Part shown: positions 46,408 to 57,883 of the stretch, piece after piece
Layout: each line of letters opens with the position of its first letter
Numbering within the stretch: position 1 is the first letter of the stretch
Source: Synechococcus elongatus PCC 11801
GTDB lineage: Bacteria; Cyanobacteriota; Cyanobacteriia; Synechococcales; Synechococcaceae
DNA: 64,000 nt
Direction: 5' to 3'
Assembly: GCF_003846445.2 (NCBI RefSeq)
Contig: NZ_CP030139.2
Coordinates: 992,001-1,056,000, forward strand
Program-made: the position numbers and the translations under genes
Notes under the pieces: generated by a model
Told to the model about the DNA's origin: nothing
Databases searched by the model: none
What the model saw: the letters and a program-made list of their open reading frames with translations, nothing else

Positions 46408-47502
46408 ATGGCTTTTCTACGAATCACTTCTGCCCAGCAGCTTTACGTTGCTTTCTACGGTCGCCCTGCAGATGTTGAAGGACGGAGCTTTTGGGACTCT
46501 GCGGTGCAGGCAATACCAGGTGCCATAGACTACGCTGCGATCGCTGAAGCCTTTGGTGAATCAGCAGAAGCTCAAATTCGATTTGGCAATTTATCCCTTG
46601 CGGAGGCGGTCAACACGCTCTATCGCTCCATTCTCAACCGTGAGGCTGATCCAGTAGGGAGAGACTTTTATGTCAAGGCATTGGAGTCAGGACAAATCAG
46701 TCTGGCCAACCTCGCGATTGCGATCGTGGAGGGTATTCAAACTGACAGTCTTGATGCTCAAACCTTTCTCAATAAAGTCCTTGCTGCCGATTGGTTGACG
46801 AATGCACTGGACACCCTAGAGGAAATTCAGGCCTATGACTTTTCAACAAATGCGATCGCCTTGCCAACCGTGCAAGATTTCATTGCCAAGGTCACTGCTG
46901 ATGCTGGCAGTGTGCCGAACTCCAATCAAGTTACAGCCATCGTGGAACAAATTGTGGTGACTTCTGGCACGCCAGCTACTGCAACTGCGATCGCTGAAGC
47001 ACGTATCGTCGTTCAAGGCGGCGATGGCAATGATCAGTTGAATGGGAGTGGAGGACAGGCAACCCTGATCGGTGCTGGCGGTCATGACACCCTGCTGGCA
47101 GGCAGTAGCGACGACAGGCTTACTGGAGGACTGGGTGCAGATGTTTTGACGGGAGGTGCAGGCCGCGATCGCTTTGTTTACACGGCACTCACTGATTCAC
47201 TGCTCTCGGGCTTTGATCGAATTACTGACTTTCAAATCGGCCTTGATAGCTTCGAAGGGCCCAATCCTACCAGTGCCATGGCGATCAACAACCTCGGGAC
47301 TGTCAGCAGCCTAGATCCCTCAGCACTAGCAGCTGTGCTAACCGCGAGCAATTTTCTGTCGAATGGAGCCGCAACCTTCCAGTTTGAGCAACGGACTTTT
47401 ATCGTTCTGAATGATGATGTTGCTGGCTTTCAAGCCAATCGCGATGCTCTGATCGAAATCACCGGCTTTCAGGGCGATCTCGCTAATCTCTCCATTGTCT
47501 AG
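46408..47502 (+). CDS. Secreted DUF4214 and RTX (haemolysin-type calcium-binding) repeat protein
   Basis: The 364-aa protein has an N-terminal DUF4214 module (LYVAFYGRPADVEGRSFWDS, LYRSILNREADPVGRDFYVKAL). RTX nonapeptide repeats follow (about 208-255: GGDGNDQLNG, GAGGHDTLLAG, GGLGADVLTGGAGRDRF), then a C-terminal part ending in alternating hydrophobics. RTX repeats bind calcium outside the cell and mark type I secretion substrates; no N-terminal signal peptide is present. The same DUF4214 family occurs at the C-terminus of the nucleotidase at 35673. The start has an AGGA ribosome site. Confidence 0.87.
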   Translation: MAFLRITSAQQLYVAFYGRPADVEGRSFWDSAVQAIPGAIDYAAIAEAFGESAEAQIRFGNLSLAEAVNTLYRSILNREADPVGRDFYVKALESGQISLANLAIAIVEGIQTDSLDAQTFLNKVLAADWLTNALDTLEEIQAYDFSTNAIALPTVQDFIAKVTADAGSVPNSNQVTAIVEQIVVTSGTPATATAIAEARIVVQGGDGNDQLNGSGGQATLIGAGGHDTLLAGSSDDRLTGGLGADVLTGGAGRDRFVYTALTDSLLSGFDRITDFQIGLDSFEGPNPTSAMAINNLGTVSSLDPSALAAVLTASNFLSNGAATFQFEQRTFIVLNDDVAGFQANRDALIEITGFQGDLANLSIV

Positions 47503-50762: not shown

Positions 50763-52481
50763 TCACGACTGCCAGAGAAGTCGAGCCTTTCTCAGCATGA
50801 ATTTGAGCACTGTTTCTTCATTTGTAATAATGTCTGCCTGAGCTTCCATCCCCGGACGAATCTTACAAATTCGCTGGCCATCTGTTAGCGGCTTCTCTTG
50901 AGGTTTAATCGTAACTTCAAAAGCTTGACTACTAGTAGATTCTGAGGGAGCAGTTGCTGCTCCAACCTGAGGTATCGAATTACCAAGGCTGCCTGCATCT
51001 GGAGCGATCGCTTGGACTCTGGCCTCTAAGGTTCCAAAATCAGGATAGGGACAGGCTGCAATACGCAATTGAACGCGCTGACCCACTGCCACTGGCAAAA
51101 TATCTTGGGATGGCACTAGGGCTTTGATCACCAAGCCACTCTGGGTGGGAGAGATACGAGCGATTTCTTGACCCACACCAACCATCTGATCTGGATTCCG
51201 TAAGTTCATCGACTGAATTATGCCTGCGATCGGAGCACGAATAATCGTATTCGCTAGGTCAATATTCATCTGCTGGAGTTCTTTTTGTTCTACTTTAATC
51301 TGTTGTAAGACATCAAACTCTTGTTGAGCCAATTGATCCTGCATTTGTCTCAGTCTTGCCTGAGTCGCTAAACCTTGTTCTTGCGTTTGTGCAGTCATTT
51401 CTTGAGCACGGTTCAAATTAGCCTGTGCAATCCGATAGCTAGCCAGTTTTTCTTGGACGATGAGATCCGCGATCGCTCCTGCAGAAGCCAATGCCTGAAA
51501 TCGTGAATATTCTTCTGCAGCCAGTGCTAGGCTAGCCTCCGCTGTCTGGAGCTCGGCCTGATTGATGTCAACTCCCCTTGCTGCTTTGTTAGACTCAGCA
51601 AGCATTTCCTCTTCAACAGCCAGTTTTTGGGACTGAATCTGCTGAAGCTTTTGCCGATTTTTAGCGATACTTTCAACTAGTTGAGCTTTTCTAGTTAATT
51701 GACGAGAGTCATCTAACAGAACAATTGGATCCCCTTGTTTGACCTCTTGATTAGATCGAGCAATAATTTGGCGCACCTTGCCCTCTACTGCAGCCTGGAC
51801 CAGTCGAGTTTCACCGATAGGGCGAATGACAGCTGGTGCTTTGACAACAACTTGATATTTTAGGATGGAGCTTAAAATTGCTGTCCCAACAAAACCTAAA
51901 ACTAAAATAATTCCAGCTATTTGAAACCAATGGTTCACAGGAGGTAAAAACTCATCTGCCTGTAAAACGTGGAGGTGTTCAGGAATTTCATCATCACTAA
52001 CAACTTGAATAGAATGCAAAACATCCTGAGAAATGCTAGGTGGGATACAAGGTTCTGCATTATCAGAGTGTTGAGTGAGCATTTGAGCGTCAGGACTTAG
52101 CTGTTCATTTTTATGGGTCAAAAGGGATTGCTCTAATTGAGAAGCTGCTAATACAGCATGGCTAGGAAAAATAATTGTTGCATCACTCTGTAACTCAGTT
52201 TTATTCTGCTGGATACTATCGCATCGTTCCAAGCCGTTGAGAGACTGATCGATAATTTCTTCATCTATTGTCAGTCCTCTTGTTAGCTCATATTCATAAC
52301 GGGCTTTTTTAAGCTCACCAAGACTATAGTAAATATGTCCTCTTAGAAGTCTCAGCCTAGGATCTTGTGGAAGACTTTTCACTAATTGATCAGCTAATTC
52401 CTCAGCGACTTCTAGATATCCATTCAAGTAGTTTTTTTCTATTTCAAAATAACAATTCTCTGACTGATCAGATGTATACAT
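50763..52481 (-). CDS. HlyD-family membrane fusion protein of the EbfG/PteB export operon, with N-terminal TPR-like region
   Basis: From the ATG at 52481 (GGAG ribosome site) the protein has 572 aa. Residues 1-85 are helical and TPR-like (YLEVAEELADQLVKSLPQDP, RGHIYYSLGELKKARYEYEL). A spacer leads to the transmembrane helix (about 186-206: FQIAGIILVLGFVGTAILSS). Then come the HlyD lipoyl halves (PIGETRLVQAAVEGKVRQII, and later IIRAPIAGIIQSM), a long coiled coil and the C-terminal beta-barrel. It is the periplasmic adaptor for the C39 ABC exporter encoded 44 bp upstream. TPR fusion to an HlyD protein is uncommon. Confidence 0.88.
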   Translation of the reverse strand: MYTSDQSENCYFEIEKNYLNGYLEVAEELADQLVKSLPQDPRLRLLRGHIYYSLGELKKARYEYELTRGLTIDEEIIDQSLNGLERCDSIQQNKTELQSDATIIFPSHAVLAASQLEQSLLTHKNEQLSPDAQMLTQHSDNAEPCIPPSISQDVLHSIQVVSDDEIPEHLHVLQADEFLPPVNHWFQIAGIILVLGFVGTAILSSILKYQVVVKAPAVIRPIGETRLVQAAVEGKVRQIIARSNQEVKQGDPIVLLDDSRQLTRKAQLVESIAKNRQKLQQIQSQKLAVEEEMLAESNKAARGVDINQAELQTAEASLALAAEEYSRFQALASAGAIADLIVQEKLASYRIAQANLNRAQEMTAQTQEQGLATQARLRQMQDQLAQQEFDVLQQIKVEQKELQQMNIDLANTIIRAPIAGIIQSMNLRNPDQMVGVGQEIARISPTQSGLVIKALVPSQDILPVAVGQRVQLRIAACPYPDFGTLEARVQAIAPDAGSLGNSIPQVGAATAPSESTSSQAFEVTIKPQEKPLTDGQRICKIRPGMEAQADIITNEETVLKFMLRKARLLWQS

Positions 52482-52525
52482 AACAGATACTCCAGAGATC
52501 ACAAGGACAATCTCAACTCAAAGAC

Positions 52526-54670
52526 TTAAGGAGCAATAAACTTAAGATGGTCACCCATTAAAGCCTGTAAATCATTGGGCCGTCCCTGAGCTTTCAGCTC
52601 TCCTTTCTCGAGAAAAGCAACCCAGTCTGAACGCTGAATCACTCTTGGTCTATGGCTAATAATAATTGTCGTTTTCCCCTTCCTAAAAGTGAGCAACCTA
52701 TCAAGGATTTGACTTTCCATGACAGGATCAAGAGCACTGGTAGATTCATCTAAAATTAAAACTGGAGGATTGTTAACAATTGCTCTAGCCAAAGCAAGTC
52801 GTTGCCTTTGACCTCCGGACAAATTTGCGCCAAACTCACCCAAAACTGTTTGATATTTATCAGGTAGATCATCAATAAATTCATCTGCCATAGTCATTCT
52901 GCAAGCTTTTACAACATTTTCAAAAGAAACATTAGGGTGAGAGAATTTAAAATTTTCTATTATTGAGCGGCTCCAGAAATGAGCATCTTGAGGTACTAAC
53001 ACAACTTGCTGACGCAGACAATCTAAGGCGATATCTTGCTGATTATAGATATCAAACTGAATATTACCTGAGTCTAATTGATAGAGACCAGAAATCAGTT
53101 TTGCTAGAGTGCTTTTTCCGCACCCAGACTGACCAATTAAGGCAGTTACTAATCCACCAGGAATCGTCAAGTCAAAATCCTTTAGCAAATCAACACGACC
53201 GGGATGATGAAAAGTTATTTTCTTGCAAAAGATATTAGTGTTGCCCGAAATAGCAATCCATGGCTTTTGAGCGGATATTGTATTTTCAGGAGTCGTTCCT
53301 AAAACTTCTGATAAACGCTGAATAACTACTTGTGAAATTAAAAATTCATCTGCAAGAGCGACAGTCCCACCAAGAAAGCCAAGCAAATTCCCGCTAAATC
53401 CATTAAATGCTAGCAGTTGGCCAATACTCATTGTTCCATCAATGACTAAACGGCTACCTAGCCAAAGAATTCCAACATTAGTAATTGTTGAGAGAAAATC
53501 TGTTGCTGTTCCAGCATAAAGATCGAGCTTTAATGCACCCCAAGACAGATACGATAACCGACCAAAGTTTTGTTGATACTCTTCCCATGCTTGGTGAATA
53601 GCCTGAGTCGTTTTGAGTAAAACTGCACCTCTAAATGTCTCTACTAGAAAACCTTGATTCTCAGAGGATTCAGAAATTAGTTGTTTATTTTTCTGTCGTA
53701 GAAAAGGTAAAAAGACTAAATTAGCGATTGTGACTATAAAGAAAGCAATAATTGCAGCTGCTGTTAGAACAGAGCTATAGCGAAGCATTACAGCCAAAGA
53801 AATTAGAGCAATAAAGAACTGACTGGGGAGTCCCAAAACAACTTGCGAGACTAAATCATTAATTCGTCGGATGTCACCGATACGACTTACGACTTCCCCA
53901 CTTCGATGATTATCGAAATACGACATCGGCAAATGAAGCAGTCGATGACCATACTCCAAAATGAGATCTAACTGCAGTTTTTGGCCAAAATAGCCAACCA
54001 AATGTGATTGAACAAGACTAATAATATTACGGAAAAAGTTCATGGCGATAACTGCGATCGCCACTGTAAAGAGCAAATGTGTATCTTTTCTGATTAAGAC
54101 ATCATCAGTCAAAAACTGCATCATAAGAGGCATCGCTAAAGCTAAGATGCCAATCACGATATTAATTAGAATAACTTGTAAAAGTAATGCTTTAAAACCC
54201 CAGACTCTCCGAATAATTCGGCTCCAGCTGTCATTTCTATCATTAGCTTGGCTATAAAATTTTTCATTATCAGGCTGGAGAAGGAGCATCACTCCATTAC
54301 TCCAACTTGTTACTAGTTCCTGCCGATCAATATACCGAATACCTACGCCAGGATCAGCAATGATATAACGCTTTCCTTTTTGCCCATATAAAGTAACCCA
54401 GTGATAGCCTTTCCAATGGATGATTGCCGGTAGTGGAGCCTCTTTTAAATGATCAATCAGTTCTAGAGAAGCTCTGACTTGGCGTGCATTAAATCCAAGG
54501 GCTTCAGCACCTCTCCGTAGTCCCAGTAGCGATGTTCCCCGAGACCCAGTACCCACTATCTCTCGGACGCGATTGAGAGAAAAACTACGGCCATAGTACT
54601 TTGCAACTGTTGCAATGCAAGCTGCTCCGCAGTCTTCTTCACTTTGTTGTCGAATACACTTGAATTTCAC
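52526..54670 (-). CDS. pteB: C39-peptidase ABC exporter (PteB-like), processes and exports double-glycine peptides
   Basis: The 714-aa protein has an N-terminal C39 peptidase with Cys14 (QSEEDCGAACIATVAKYY), His90 (WKGYHWVTLYG) and Asp106 (IIADPGVG). Six transmembrane helices follow (about 150-440). The nucleotide-binding domain has Walker A GQSGCGKST (about 515-523), VPQDAHFW, signature LSGGQRQR and VLILDEST. It cleaves leaders after GG and exports the products. The four small genes just upstream encode such substrates. It matches PteB of S. elongatus, which is needed for biofilm formation. Confidence 0.93.
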   Translation of the reverse strand: MKFKCIRQQSEEDCGAACIATVAKYYGRSFSLNRVREIVGTGSRGTSLLGLRRGAEALGFNARQVRASLELIDHLKEAPLPAIIHWKGYHWVTLYGQKGKRYIIADPGVGIRYIDRQELVTSWSNGVMLLLQPDNEKFYSQANDRNDSWSRIIRRVWGFKALLLQVILINIVIGILALAMPLMMQFLTDDVLIRKDTHLLFTVAIAVIAMNFFRNIISLVQSHLVGYFGQKLQLDLILEYGHRLLHLPMSYFDNHRSGEVVSRIGDIRRINDLVSQVVLGLPSQFFIALISLAVMLRYSSVLTAAAIIAFFIVTIANLVFLPFLRQKNKQLISESSENQGFLVETFRGAVLLKTTQAIHQAWEEYQQNFGRLSYLSWGALKLDLYAGTATDFLSTITNVGILWLGSRLVIDGTMSIGQLLAFNGFSGNLLGFLGGTVALADEFLISQVVIQRLSEVLGTTPENTISAQKPWIAISGNTNIFCKKITFHHPGRVDLLKDFDLTIPGGLVTALIGQSGCGKSTLAKLISGLYQLDSGNIQFDIYNQQDIALDCLRQQVVLVPQDAHFWSRSIIENFKFSHPNVSFENVVKACRMTMADEFIDDLPDKYQTVLGEFGANLSGGQRQRLALARAIVNNPPVLILDESTSALDPVMESQILDRLLTFRKGKTTIIISHRPRVIQRSDWVAFLEKGELKAQGRPNDLQALMGDHLKFIAP

Positions 54671-54697
54671 AACAGTTCAGAGCTGAACAACAGGGAT

Positions 54698-54731
54698 AAA
54701 AAGGACTGAGAGTGAGGTGAACTCACTCTCA
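54698..54731 (-). terminator. Terminator-like hairpin between the ebfG genes and the exporter
   Basis: A perfect 10-bp stem (54707-54716 with 54722-54731; arms TGAGAGTGAG and CTCACTCTCA) with a 5-nt loop. Reading leftward, GTCC then TTTTT follows. It lies in the 93-bp gap after the last ebfG gene and before pteB, so it could partly stop transcription and lower exporter expression relative to the peptides. A second small hairpin (GTTCAG/CTGAAC, 54674-54687) lies just before pteB. Confidence 0.65.
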
Positions 54732-54763
54732 CAGAAAAAGCTCTCAACCAGTCAACAAGTCTA

Positions 54764-55015
54764 TTAAAGATTGACAGCAATATTAATTGGCACCTGTACA
54801 GAAGGAGAAGTGATTGTACTAATCCCTATATTCTGAGCAAGCGATAATGCATTCGCAACAGTTCCAGCACTAATTGCAAATCCAGAGGGGCTAGCGATCG
54901 CAGTCGATAGAGCGATCGCAGAAGCGCCTGAATTAGCAGACTGAAAGAGTGACCCAGTTACTAGTTCAGCCTGGTGATCAGAGAGATCCGCTACCAAGTC
55001 AAATTCAAGTTGCAT
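54764..55015 (-). CDS. ebfG4: Small secreted biofilm protein, EbfG family (fourth gene of operon)
   Basis: The 83-aa protein has a leader-like start with ADLSDHQAELVTGS, where the usual GG of C39 leaders is GS. The mature part is rich in Ala, Ser and Ile (SAIALSTAIASPSGFAISAG, SLAQNIGISTITSPSVQVP) with a hydrophobic, beta-prone character shared with the other three. EbfG proteins are secreted matrix proteins required for biofilm; at least one is reported to form amyloid-like fibres. Its ATG has a GAGG ribosome site. The numbering follows gene order here and may differ from the literature. Confidence 0.8.
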   Translation of the reverse strand: MQLEFDLVADLSDHQAELVTGSLFQSANSGASAIALSTAIASPSGFAISAGTVANALSLAQNIGISTITSPSVQVPINIAVNL

Positions 55016-55148
55016 CTTTCTTACCTCATCAAGTGAGAATGAACAAACATCAGATAGAAGTTTTTATTAGATAGCAGAATAAGAATTCATGAAAAATTTA
55101 ATCGGGTAGTCTTCTAAGAGCATAGAGATACAAGAACTTAGCATTTGA

Positions 55149-55424
55149 TCATGCTAATATCGAGTTGCCCTCTACCAGAGAAGCTGCATTAGAAACAGCA
55201 GTTGCTGTTGCAACTTGAGGACTATTTACACTGAAGATAGAAATATTAATTGCGATCGCATTTGAAGTGCTTATTGCACTCGATCGAATAGGTGAAACAA
55301 TATTTTGAATATTACCTAGTTTACGATTTTTAGGTTTGTCAATGCCCCAGTTCTTTCCCCAGGCTTTACCGCCAACAAGTTGCTGTGCACTATCATCACT
55401 AATGACTTCAATGAGCTGACTCAC
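55149..55424 (-). CDS. ebfG3: Small secreted biofilm protein, EbfG family (third gene of operon)
   Basis: The 91-aa protein starts at GTG with a GAGGA ribosome site. The leader MSQLIEVISDDSAQQLVGG ends in a clear double glycine, the C39 cleavage site. The mature part begins KAWGKNWGIDKPKNRK and then has the family core SAIS-TSNAIAINISIFSVNSPQVATATAVS (split here for reading). The core motif with N-I-x-x-x-x-x-x-S-P-Q recurs in the other EbfG proteins. It is probably exported by the transporter encoded at 52526. A 7-bp hairpin overlaps its stop codon (55138-55157). Confidence 0.85.
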   Translation of the reverse strand: MSQLIEVISDDSAQQLVGGKAWGKNWGIDKPKNRKLGNIQNIVSPIRSSAISTSNAIAINISIFSVNSPQVATATAVSNAASLVEGNSILA

Positions 55425-55440
55425 AATAGATTCCTCATTA

Positions 55441-55482
55441 GTAAAAAAGAAATTGAAATGCTCATTAATTAATGAGCATTTC
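55441..55482 (-). terminator. Terminator-like hairpin between the second and third ebfG genes
   Basis: A 28-bp perfect palindrome (55455-55482), which as RNA gives a 12-bp stem with AATT loop. Reading leftward it is followed by AATTTC and TTTTTT (55443-55448). It lies after the second ebfG gene and just before the ribosome site of the third. It could reduce transcription into the rest of the operon or serve as a processing and stability hairpin. Confidence 0.65.
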
Positions 55483-55496
55483 CTGACTAAATTTAT

Positions 55497-55763
55497 CTAG
55501 GCTGAGACAATCCCACCTAGAACTGTCGAGTTGGCTTCCGAGGTCGCAATTGCTGTAGCGAACTGAGGGCTTTTAATATTGAAGGATCCAATGTTAAGAG
55601 CGGTTGCGCTAGCACTGCTGACAGATACTGATTTAATAGGTGCAAAAACGGACTGCTTAATCGTAGATGTTGGCTTTTTATAGCTTGGATATTGAGTATA
55701 ACCTGAACCACCTAGGAGAGATTCGGCTTGATTGTCATTGACAGTAACAAGAAATTGAGACAT
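55497..55763 (-). CDS. ebfG2: Small secreted biofilm protein, EbfG family (second gene of operon)
   Basis: The 88-aa protein has leader MSQFLVTVNDNQAESLLGG with the double-glycine cleavage site. The mature part starts SGYTQYPSYKKP and has the family core (KSVSVSSASATALNIGSFN, then KSPQFATAIATSEAN). It is very similar to the first gene of the operon in both protein and DNA, suggesting tandem duplication. AGGAG lies upstream of the ATG, right after a small hairpin (TTTTCT/AGAAAA). Expected role: secreted matrix component. Confidence 0.87.
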   Translation of the reverse strand: MSQFLVTVNDNQAESLLGGSGYTQYPSYKKPTSTIKQSVFAPIKSVSVSSASATALNIGSFNIKSPQFATAIATSEANSTVLGGIVSA

Positions 55764-55848
55764 GACAAACTCCTATTTTCTAGTTAGAAAAAGATGTAGG
55801 TATGATGCAGTCAAGATAAGTGATCCTAGCTGCTTCAAAGTGAGGGCT

Positions 55849-56127
55849 TTAGGCAGAAACCCTACCGCCCCAAACTGTTGATGTAGCGCTAGAACCTGCA
55901 CCAGCCGTCGCTGTTTGAGGACTAAAGACGTTTTTGAAGCCGATATTTAGAGCGGTTGCATCAGCACTGCTGATAGAAACCGATTTAATTGGTGCAATGA
56001 CAGTCTGCGAAACAGACGATGGATGCTTCTTCGGATGCATCGGATACGGATGCGATGGAGGGGTATATGTACCACCAACTAGTTCCTGAGCATTTTGATC
56101 GTTGAGCAAGTTAATGAACTGAGACAT
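55849..56127 (-). CDS. ebfG1: Small secreted biofilm protein, EbfG family (first gene of operon)
   Basis: From the ATG at 56127 (GGAG ribosome site; an in-frame upstream start at 56139 is less likely) the protein has 92 aa. Leader MSQFINLLNDQNAQELVGG has the double-glycine site. The mature part starts TYTPPSHPYPMHPKKHP and ends in the family core (KSVSISSADATALNIGFKN, SPQTATAGAGSSATS, GGRVSA). It is the promoter-proximal gene of the leftward operon. High similarity to the second gene points to duplication. Confidence 0.87.
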   Translation of the reverse strand: MSQFINLLNDQNAQELVGGTYTPPSHPYPMHPKKHPSSVSQTVIAPIKSVSISSADATALNIGFKNVFSPQTATAGAGSSATSTVWGGRVSA

Positions 56128-56716
56128 GACAGACTCCAATTAAGTTTTTTAACTCTCAAGAGCAACTTTTGATGCGCTCTTGATTCATAAGCTATCCCTC
56201 TGAAATCAAAATGGATCACTTGACTTATTAAGGAAATCTTGTAGTCATTCAATTCATTTTGATAACATCAACAATGTTGATTTTTATCGAATTGTATTTC
56301 AGGGTATTTTTTAAGCTTTCACCTAAAATCCTCATTAGGAAATGGCTATAAGCAATGATTGGGTAGCTTCTTGGAACTTTCTTCTGCAGCTACTTCCCAA
56401 CGAGTTGGGAGAATTAATCAAAAATGTACAAGTGTTCTCAATTTTCACCCGAGAGTTTAGGTTTCCATTGGTTAACTCGTGCTTAACAAAAAATTATCGT
56501 TCTGTTGGTTGTGCCTTTGGGCTCAGAGAGCTTTGAAGAAATAGTCCCAATGAGAAGGAGAGAACCTTCTAGAGTGCTTGTGAGCTGTGATTTTGTGGAC
56601 TTCCGAATTGATCACGTGCAGCTGACTCAGTCAATATCCATAGCGCTTCTTTTGCCAAAAGCAGTTCACTCCGTAATCGCTACCGTCACAATGGAGCGGT
56701 CTTCCAGCCAAGGGTT
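56128..56716. other. Gene-free AT-rich region between the ebfG operon and the CorA-type gene
   Basis: About 590 bp holding two divergent promoters. A perfect 8-bp stem (TCAAGAGC 56156-56163 with GCTCTTGA 56176-56183) lies in the likely ebfG leader. To the right are small hairpins, TCCCAA-CGAG-TTGGGA around 56394-56409 and GAAGG/CCTTC near 56555-56570. No open reading frame has a recognisable family. The AT-rich stretch 56190-56340 is the best place for ebfG control sites. Confidence 0.5.
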
Positions 56717-57883
56717 ATGGGTTCCCGCCGCACCAACAACCGACACCATCGCAAAAGTAGACGCCGCAGTTTTCGTCATCGACTCACCAGTACAGTCCAC
56801 CAAGCGCCAGGTACACTGCAGCGGCCTCCAGATGCTAGTCCCACACAGCTACGACAGATTGAATACAGTGCTACAAGGGTCGTTAGCCGCGTGATTTCTG
56901 ACCCTCTTGACCTCGTTTCAGCTCGGATGGAGGAGACCGGGATTACTTGGTTGCAGCTGCAGGGTTTTTCGGATCTGGGACAACTGCGCAGCCTTGGGGA
57001 GGTGTTTGAGTTAGATCCGCTGACCTTGGAGGATTTAATCGGACATCCTCAGCGCCCTAAGCAGGAACGCTATCCGCACTACCTTGAGGTGATTCTCTAC
57101 CGGCCAGATCTCCAGCGAGGCGATCGCCTTCGTCTTGAACAAGTAGGACTGATCTTGGGCGATCGCTGGCTGCTGACGGCGGAGGCAGATGATACGAGTG
57201 CAGGATTTCAGCCATTAGAACGACGTCTAGAAGGAAGTCGTATAGTTGATCCCCCGATTGAGGCCGATACCCTTGCTTACTGGGTGATTGACTGGATTGT
57301 TGATAGCTACTTCCCCGTACTGGAGACCTTTGGAGAGGAACTCGAGCAATTGGAAGATGCTGTCGTTGCTCGTCCGACTCAAGCGCTGCTCTCAGCAATT
57401 TACGAGCTCAGGCGCGAGCTGATGGTACTGCGACGGGTAGTTTGGCCATTGCGGGATGTGATCAACGCTCTGATCCGCGATCGCACCACGCTGATTCGCG
57501 ATGAGGTGCGCATGGATCTTCGTGATTGTGCAGACCACGCCTACTTCCTAATGGACACCTTGGAGACCTACCGCGATTTGGCTAATAACCTGATGGAGGT
57601 CTATCTGTCATCAATTAGTAATCGCCTCAATCAAGTTATGAAACTGTTGGCGATCCTGTCGACCGTGTTCATGCCCCTCACCTTGATTGCAGGCATCTAC
57701 GGCATGAACTTCAACACCCAGGCCTCTCGCTGGAATATGCCGGAGTTGAACTGGCCCTACGGCTATCCCCTCGTGCTGATGGCAATGGTGGCGATCGCTG
57801 TTGTCCTACTCTGGCTGTTTTGGCAGCGGGGCTGGTTGGAAGACTGGAGCAAACCAAGCCGGCGCGTAGAACATGAACCCTGA
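56717..57883 (+). CDS. CorA-type magnesium/divalent-cation transporter
   Basis: The 388-aa protein has a very basic N-terminal tail (NNRHHRKSRRRSFRHRL) and a long cytoplasmic funnel domain (LGEVFELDPLTLEDLIGHPQRPK, ERYPHYLEVILY). Two C-terminal transmembrane helices follow, the first with the YGMNF signature (TLIAGIYGMNFNTQ) and the second LVLMAMVAIAVVLLWLFW. All CorA hallmarks are present, so magnesium uptake is likely. The gene is divergent from the ebfG operon. Confidence 0.92.
   Translation: MGSRRTNNRHHRKSRRRSFRHRLTSTVHQAPGTLQRPPDASPTQLRQIEYSATRVVSRVISDPLDLVSARMEETGITWLQLQGFSDLGQLRSLGEVFELDPLTLEDLIGHPQRPKQERYPHYLEVILYRPDLQRGDRLRLEQVGLILGDRWLLTAEADDTSAGFQPLERRLEGSRIVDPPIEADTLAYWVIDWIVDSYFPVLETFGEELEQLEDAVVARPTQALLSAIYELRRELMVLRRVVWPLRDVINALIRDRTTLIRDEVRMDLRDCADHAYFLMDTLETYRDLANNLMEVYLSSISNRLNQVMKLLAILSTVFMPLTLIAGIYGMNFNTQASRWNMPELNWPYGYPLVLMAMVAIAVVLLWLFWQRGWLEDWSKPSRRVEHEP

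Follow-up and report, generated by a model that had tools for sequence, protein, structure and literature searches.

The closest described counterpart of the locus analysed here is the ebfG1-4/pteB system of Synechococcus elongatus PCC 7942, which consists of Synpcc7942_1134 with the three ORFs upstream of it, and Synpcc7942_1133, with hlyD as the next gene. The EbfG proteins of PCC 7942 have been shown to be secreted and to play a role in biofilm formation, and three of them form amyloids (PMC4997328, PMC9981879). An amyloid hotspot of the form A-hydrophobic-N-I-small is present in EbfG1-3, and EbfG4 carries AQNIG, which goes along with absent amyloid behaviour (PMC9981879). In the description of 2016, the EbfG proteins were without homologues in other cyanobacteria.

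Layout and orthology of the operon

The window, i.e. the whole stretch of 64,000 nucleotides that was analysed, contains six ORFs at positions 50763-56127, all on the minus strand: four small genes with double-glycine leaders, a gene for a C39-peptidase ABC exporter and one for a HlyD adaptor, just as an earlier note on this DNA had given them with respect to gene content, place and strand. The same note had read the locus as an EbfG/PteB-type biofilm operon. The comparison with PCC 7942 was made via G001, the sole other genome of the genus in the collection (n = 2), in which EbfG1, EbfG2 and EbfG4 read GG/TTYNPPSYPYPSYPK, GG/SGYSIPTYPK and GA/LLQTANSVAAAIAK at the cut site; these peptides exactly match non-tryptic peptides that were identified by mass spectrometry in the medium of PCC 7942 (PMC4997328). 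With G001 as reference, the protein comparison proposed in the note yielded identities of 74, 58, 59, 77, 89 and 74% for EbfG1-4, PteB and HlyD, respectively. The reading as an EbfG/PteB-type operon is thus supported: the small proteins, for which a lack of similarity to EbfG proteins would have spoken against it, are 58-77% identical to the EbfGs of G001, the gene order matches, and the six genes are orthologous to ebfG1-4, pteB and hlyD by position as well. We consider it very probable that 50763-56127 represents the ebfG1-4/pteB/hlyD operon as found in a second species of the Synechococcus elongatus type, with the export and matrix mechanism as proposed below. By analogy with PCC 7942, the genes would be co-transcribed in this strain as well, and their products secreted, processed and involved in biofilm formation.

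The pteB gene (52526..54670, minus strand) encodes a protein of 714 amino acids with the Pfam domains Peptidase_C39 (E 4e-36), ABC_membrane (5e-36) and ABC_tran (6e-31), and the adaptor matches HlyD_3 (1e-15), which bears out the assignment of the two proteins as C39-peptidase ABC exporter and HlyD adaptor. The C39 and ABC motifs of PteB are complete, with DCGAAC at residue 13 (containing the catalytic Cys of C39), Walker A at 513, LSGGQ at 617 and LILDE at 638, and its closest solved relatives are PCAT1 structures, e.g. 4ry2. The TolC-like partner, which the note had placed outside the window, was located by a genome search as a single protein with two OEP domains (G000:C1:123495-124760), so that the type I secretion trio of ABC exporter, HlyD adaptor and TolC-type outer-membrane protein is complete in the genome. 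Four PF01523 proteins are also encoded, i.e. members of the candidate family to which the processing peptidase EbfE presumably belongs. We propose that the GG leaders of the EbfG1-4 precursors would guide them to PteB, the C39 domain of which would cut them, and that PteB would export the mature EbfGs by way of the HlyD adaptor and the only TolC-type channel of the genome. Outside the cell, judging from PCC 7942, EbfG1-3 would serve as matrix proteins prone to amyloid formation and EbfG4 would be a surface or matrix protein, giving rise to a biofilm.

At a distance of about 3 kb from hlyD, positions 46408-47502 (plus strand) encode a DUF4214 protein of 364 amino acids with RTX calcium-binding repeats, which is likely a type I secretion substrate. 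A tblastx match of the HlyD N-terminus at window positions 46475-46600 is antisense to this RTX protein and was discarded as spurious.

The gaps between the ebfG genes measure 72-133 bp and contain conserved hairpins. A perfect hairpin of 12 bp, the stem sequence of which is kept in G001, lies between ebfG2 and ebfG3 (55455..55482, minus strand), and a terminator-like hairpin of 10 bp with a T run lies between ebfG4 and pteB (54707..54731, minus strand), where G001 has a hairpin of other sequence at the same place. Perfect stems of at least 10 bp occur five times in the 64 kb, including these two, vs 0-1 times in simple shuffles. The hairpins, one of them terminator-like and located before pteB, probably make expression stepped and would raise the cargo over the exporter. 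Simkovsky et al. called pteB cistronic with ebfG (PMC9260433), in line with incomplete rather than full termination at the hairpin.

Upstream of ebfG1, a putative leader/promoter region of the operon (56128..56247, minus strand; 120 nt) is 87% identical between the two species, compared with 47% further up; a scan for sigma-70 promoters found nothing. This region includes the hairpin TCAAGAGC...GCTCTTGA (56156..56183, minus strand), located 29-56 nt before ebfG1, in which one A-U pair is changed to G-U in G001, a change that keeps the RNA pair. The next gene upstream is a divergent gene for a CorA-type transporter (about 56250-56720). Here synteny with G001 breaks, since a different ORF of 172 amino acids takes this place in that genome; despite the break, a conserved dyad stays with ebfG. 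This dyad, TCCCAAC-N-CGTTGGGA (56395..56410, without strand), is found ~270 bp ahead of ebfG1 in either species; it is rare in the two genomes and occurs at a single place in that of this strain.

The N-terminal TPR module of the HlyD adaptor

The hlyD gene (50763..52481, minus strand) encodes a periplasmic adaptor of 572 amino acids if read from the ATG at 52481, which is most likely the start rather than the GTG at 52502 of the ORF listing, because it is preceded by GGAG and aligns with the start of the sister gene. The adaptor carries an extra N-terminal domain, which had been missed in the earlier note. The transmembrane segment starts near residue 190 in the adaptors of this genus. Among the PteB-linked adaptors examined from other cyanobacteria, it usually begins near residue 27 and at most at residue 66; in one of these the front is long and rich in proline.

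The N-terminus of the adaptor aligns with that of a protein of ~840 amino acids present in both genomes (46-47% identity over ~115 residues, E about 1e-28; the adaptor N-termini match the genus's own PilJ with E 8e-28 and 3.5e-28). This protein contains HAMP and MCP signalling domains, its gene is located between a CheW gene and a gene for a CheA-receiver hybrid, and by these features it is classified as a PilJ-type receptor. Both genomes encode exactly two MCPs, the second of which, with five or six GAF domains, is by domain content a PixJ-type photoreceptor. Since the other MCP is assigned to this type, the donor of the module would be the non-photoreceptor MCP and thus, by exclusion, the receptor of the tax2 operon. 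The photoreceptor itself has six GAF domains in G000 (L156:3339-8150) and five in G001 (L155:3755-7975), which is possibly a difference in light sensing.

The cytosolic module (52218..52478, minus strand; ~86 residues) is 51-52% identical to that of the genus's PilJ and 36-44% identical to other PilJ modules, and Pfam TPR models alone match it weakly; at the sequence level the homology between the N-termini of the adaptor and of PilJ thus exceeds a generic resemblance among TPRs. For residues 11-90, AlphaFold2 predicts a five-helix TPR fold (pLDDT 94-98), which is followed by a disordered linker, and Foldseek matches the predicted module to the designed TPR 1na3 (1.4 Å over 85 columns).

The module was detected in 308 of 390 cyanobacterial genomes, and every case opened was a PilJ gene, whole or broken; the second copies of the module were sized as well. 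Short module-bearing ORFs of other genomes were considered as other fusions and rejected, each case opened being a truncated, frame-broken or short PilJ gene. Among the matches listed and opened, which covered part of the weakest ones, the module was seen on HlyD in this genus only, in both of its genomes. Phylogenetically, the adaptor modules group with the PilJ modules of the genus itself at a support of 100/99 (the program warns of long branches), and a topology placing them with the nearest foreign PilJs was rejected (p 0.0098), the mirror test being weaker (p 0.099). From these results we conclude that the fusion most likely took place within this lineage and predates the separation of the two species. 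Judging from its conservation, the module is under selection, since it is kept at 80% identity between the species while the synonymous sites of the gene are saturated, vs 67% over the whole 182-residue front of the adaptor. A description of the fusion was not found in the literature searched, in which the biofilm papers mention neither HlyD nor PilJ and Synpcc7942_1132, by position the adaptor gene of PCC 7942, is named only in a genome-conservation survey; the domain share between adaptor and PilJ is apparently unreported.

Biofilm suppression in PCC 7942 requires the pilus-assembly proteins PilB, EbsA and Hfq (PMC9981879, PMC9260433), flask biofilms in conditioned medium showed a specific enrichment of transposon mutants in three tax2 genes that are co-transcribed, the function of the tax2 operon being otherwise unknown (PMC9260433), and HmpF of Synechocystis pulls down PilJ, another MCP and PilB (PMC7002697). 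The most likely role of the module, which we put forward tentatively, would be to tether the exporter to a partner that the adaptor and PilJ have in common, and thereby to couple matrix export to the pilus/chemosensory apparatus. In this way a physical link might exist between the EbfG exporter and the chemosensory apparatus of the type IV pilus, with the common partner gating or positioning export, a possibility that we consider less likely than not. If true, this would provide a protein-level explanation for the changed biofilm formation of pilus and tax2 mutants; the domain share makes the bearing of the pilus machinery and tax2 on biofilms experimentally testable. A genetic link through hmpF, which is adjacent to ebfG in G001, was rejected because the two are ~0.87 Mb apart in the genome of this strain.

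It is possible, if doubtful, that the module serves instead as a receptor for the EbfG precursors, i.e. in cargo recruitment, which would suit its cytosolic location, its origin in the same genus that has the EbfG cargo and the ability of TPR folds to bind peptides, secretion chaperones being among its fold neighbours. However, PilJ as the source of the module has no known export cargo, and PteB relatives elsewhere work with adaptors that do not have the module. That the module is a by-product of gene fusion which is tolerated but lacks a specific role appears improbable: its function is a prediction from homology and the linker behind it has diverged (the front of the adaptor as a whole reaching the lower identity given above), but the conservation of the module against saturated synonymous sites speaks for selection.

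The EbfG proteins and their distribution

All four ebfG genes lie on the minus strand and encode precursors of 83-92 amino acids with N-terminal leaders of the ...D..A..L.GG type: ebfG1 (55849..56127) encodes 92, ebfG2 (55497..55763) 88, ebfG3 (55149..55424; GTG start, likewise in the sister species) 91 and ebfG4 (54764..55015) 83 amino acids, the last with TG-S in the leader and a predicted cut after TGS. The hotspot pentapeptides are ALNIG (in the mature core of EbfG1), ALNIG, AINIS and AQNIG in order, the last replacing the amyloid hotspot, so that the published hotspot and the leaders are conserved in the EbfGs of this strain. None of the four proteins has a significant Pfam or NCBIfam family. 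The NI-x(6)-SP core motif described in the earlier note is shared by the four EbfGs of this strain and the four of the sister species, and the tandem duplication it had suggested for the first two genes is plausible given the 61% identity of EbfG1 and EbfG2; EbfG3 is 36-40% identical to these two, and EbfG4 is the outlier (23-26%). Between the two species, dN/dS ranges from 0.11 (EbfG1) to 0.24 with synonymous sites at or near saturation, from which we conclude that the EbfG sequences have diverged but are under purifying selection. Such a diverged orthologue set reveals the residues held by selection, namely the leader, PI-x-S, A-hydrophobic-NI and SP. An AlphaFold2 model of EbfG2 from six sequences reached a pLDDT of 48 and was set aside.

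In a six-frame profile search, true EbfG members were present in 2 of 390 cyanobacterial genomes, both of this genus; the profile was built from eight EbfGs and few candidates were scored per genome, such that very diverged relatives may escape. Marginal matches outside the genus were rejected, those read being chance frames or leader-only matches, and scans of genome contigs, viral contigs and plasmids returned no EbfG relatives. Relatives of PteB (E below 1e-130) occur in 104 of the 390 genomes, and most of the 22 loci scanned have small GG-leader genes nearby with cores unrelated to EbfG. With PteB relatives this widespread and their neighbouring cargo cores unrelated, the sequences indicate that a general exporter-adaptor pair carries lineage-specific cargo, EbfG being the cargo of this genus. 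At one such locus (L035:1323-2637), the cores of two GG-leader proteins upstream of the PteB relative contain an internal repeat (INxTNPxxxDGxIVxF twice), and the two proteins are perhaps another matrix-like cargo; at another (L092:2779-5722), the cargo array upstream of the PteB relative is expanded and comprises five GG-leader proteins in tandem, the cores of which are similar.

That the EbfGs are microcin-like bacteriocins and the operon an antagonism rather than a matrix system is highly improbable, for although bacteriocins typically have GG leaders and C39 exporters and the EbfG4 leader weakly matches the cyanobacterial CTB bacteriocin family, this match (NF038167) reaches 14 bits vs a cut-off of 32 bits, lies mostly over the leader and concerns only EbfG4, the orthologues have a demonstrated role in biofilms and include three that form amyloids (PMC4997328, PMC9981879), and the operon contains no further gene able to give immunity.

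Comparison with known systems

Known structures of the PCAT1/ComA type come from Gram-positive bacteria. These peptidase-containing ABC transporters have the same full-length domain order as PteB, but the solved systems work without HlyD and TolC partners. The PteB-like exporters of other cyanobacteria are C39 ABC exporters that are 43-66% identical to PteB over most of its length and are likewise followed by a HlyD adaptor, whereas their cargo is unrelated to EbfG and their adaptors have no TPR module. The PilJ-type chemoreceptor of the CheW-MCP-CheA cluster shares the N-terminal TPR module with the adaptor, and in this receptor the module is followed by HAMP and MCP signalling domains instead of a HlyD adaptor. 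With the system of PCC 7942, compared via G001, the locus shares gene order, strand, the four GG-type cargo genes, PteB and the amyloid hotspot, as well as the PilJ module on the adaptor and hairpins at the same junctions. It differs in the cargo, which is 58-77% identical, in a shorter proline/tyrosine-rich region of EbfG2, in GS instead of GA in EbfG4 and in the upstream neighbour, which is CorA here. The operon is an ordinary and convincing orthologue of the known system, and its adaptor has one apparently unreported oddity.
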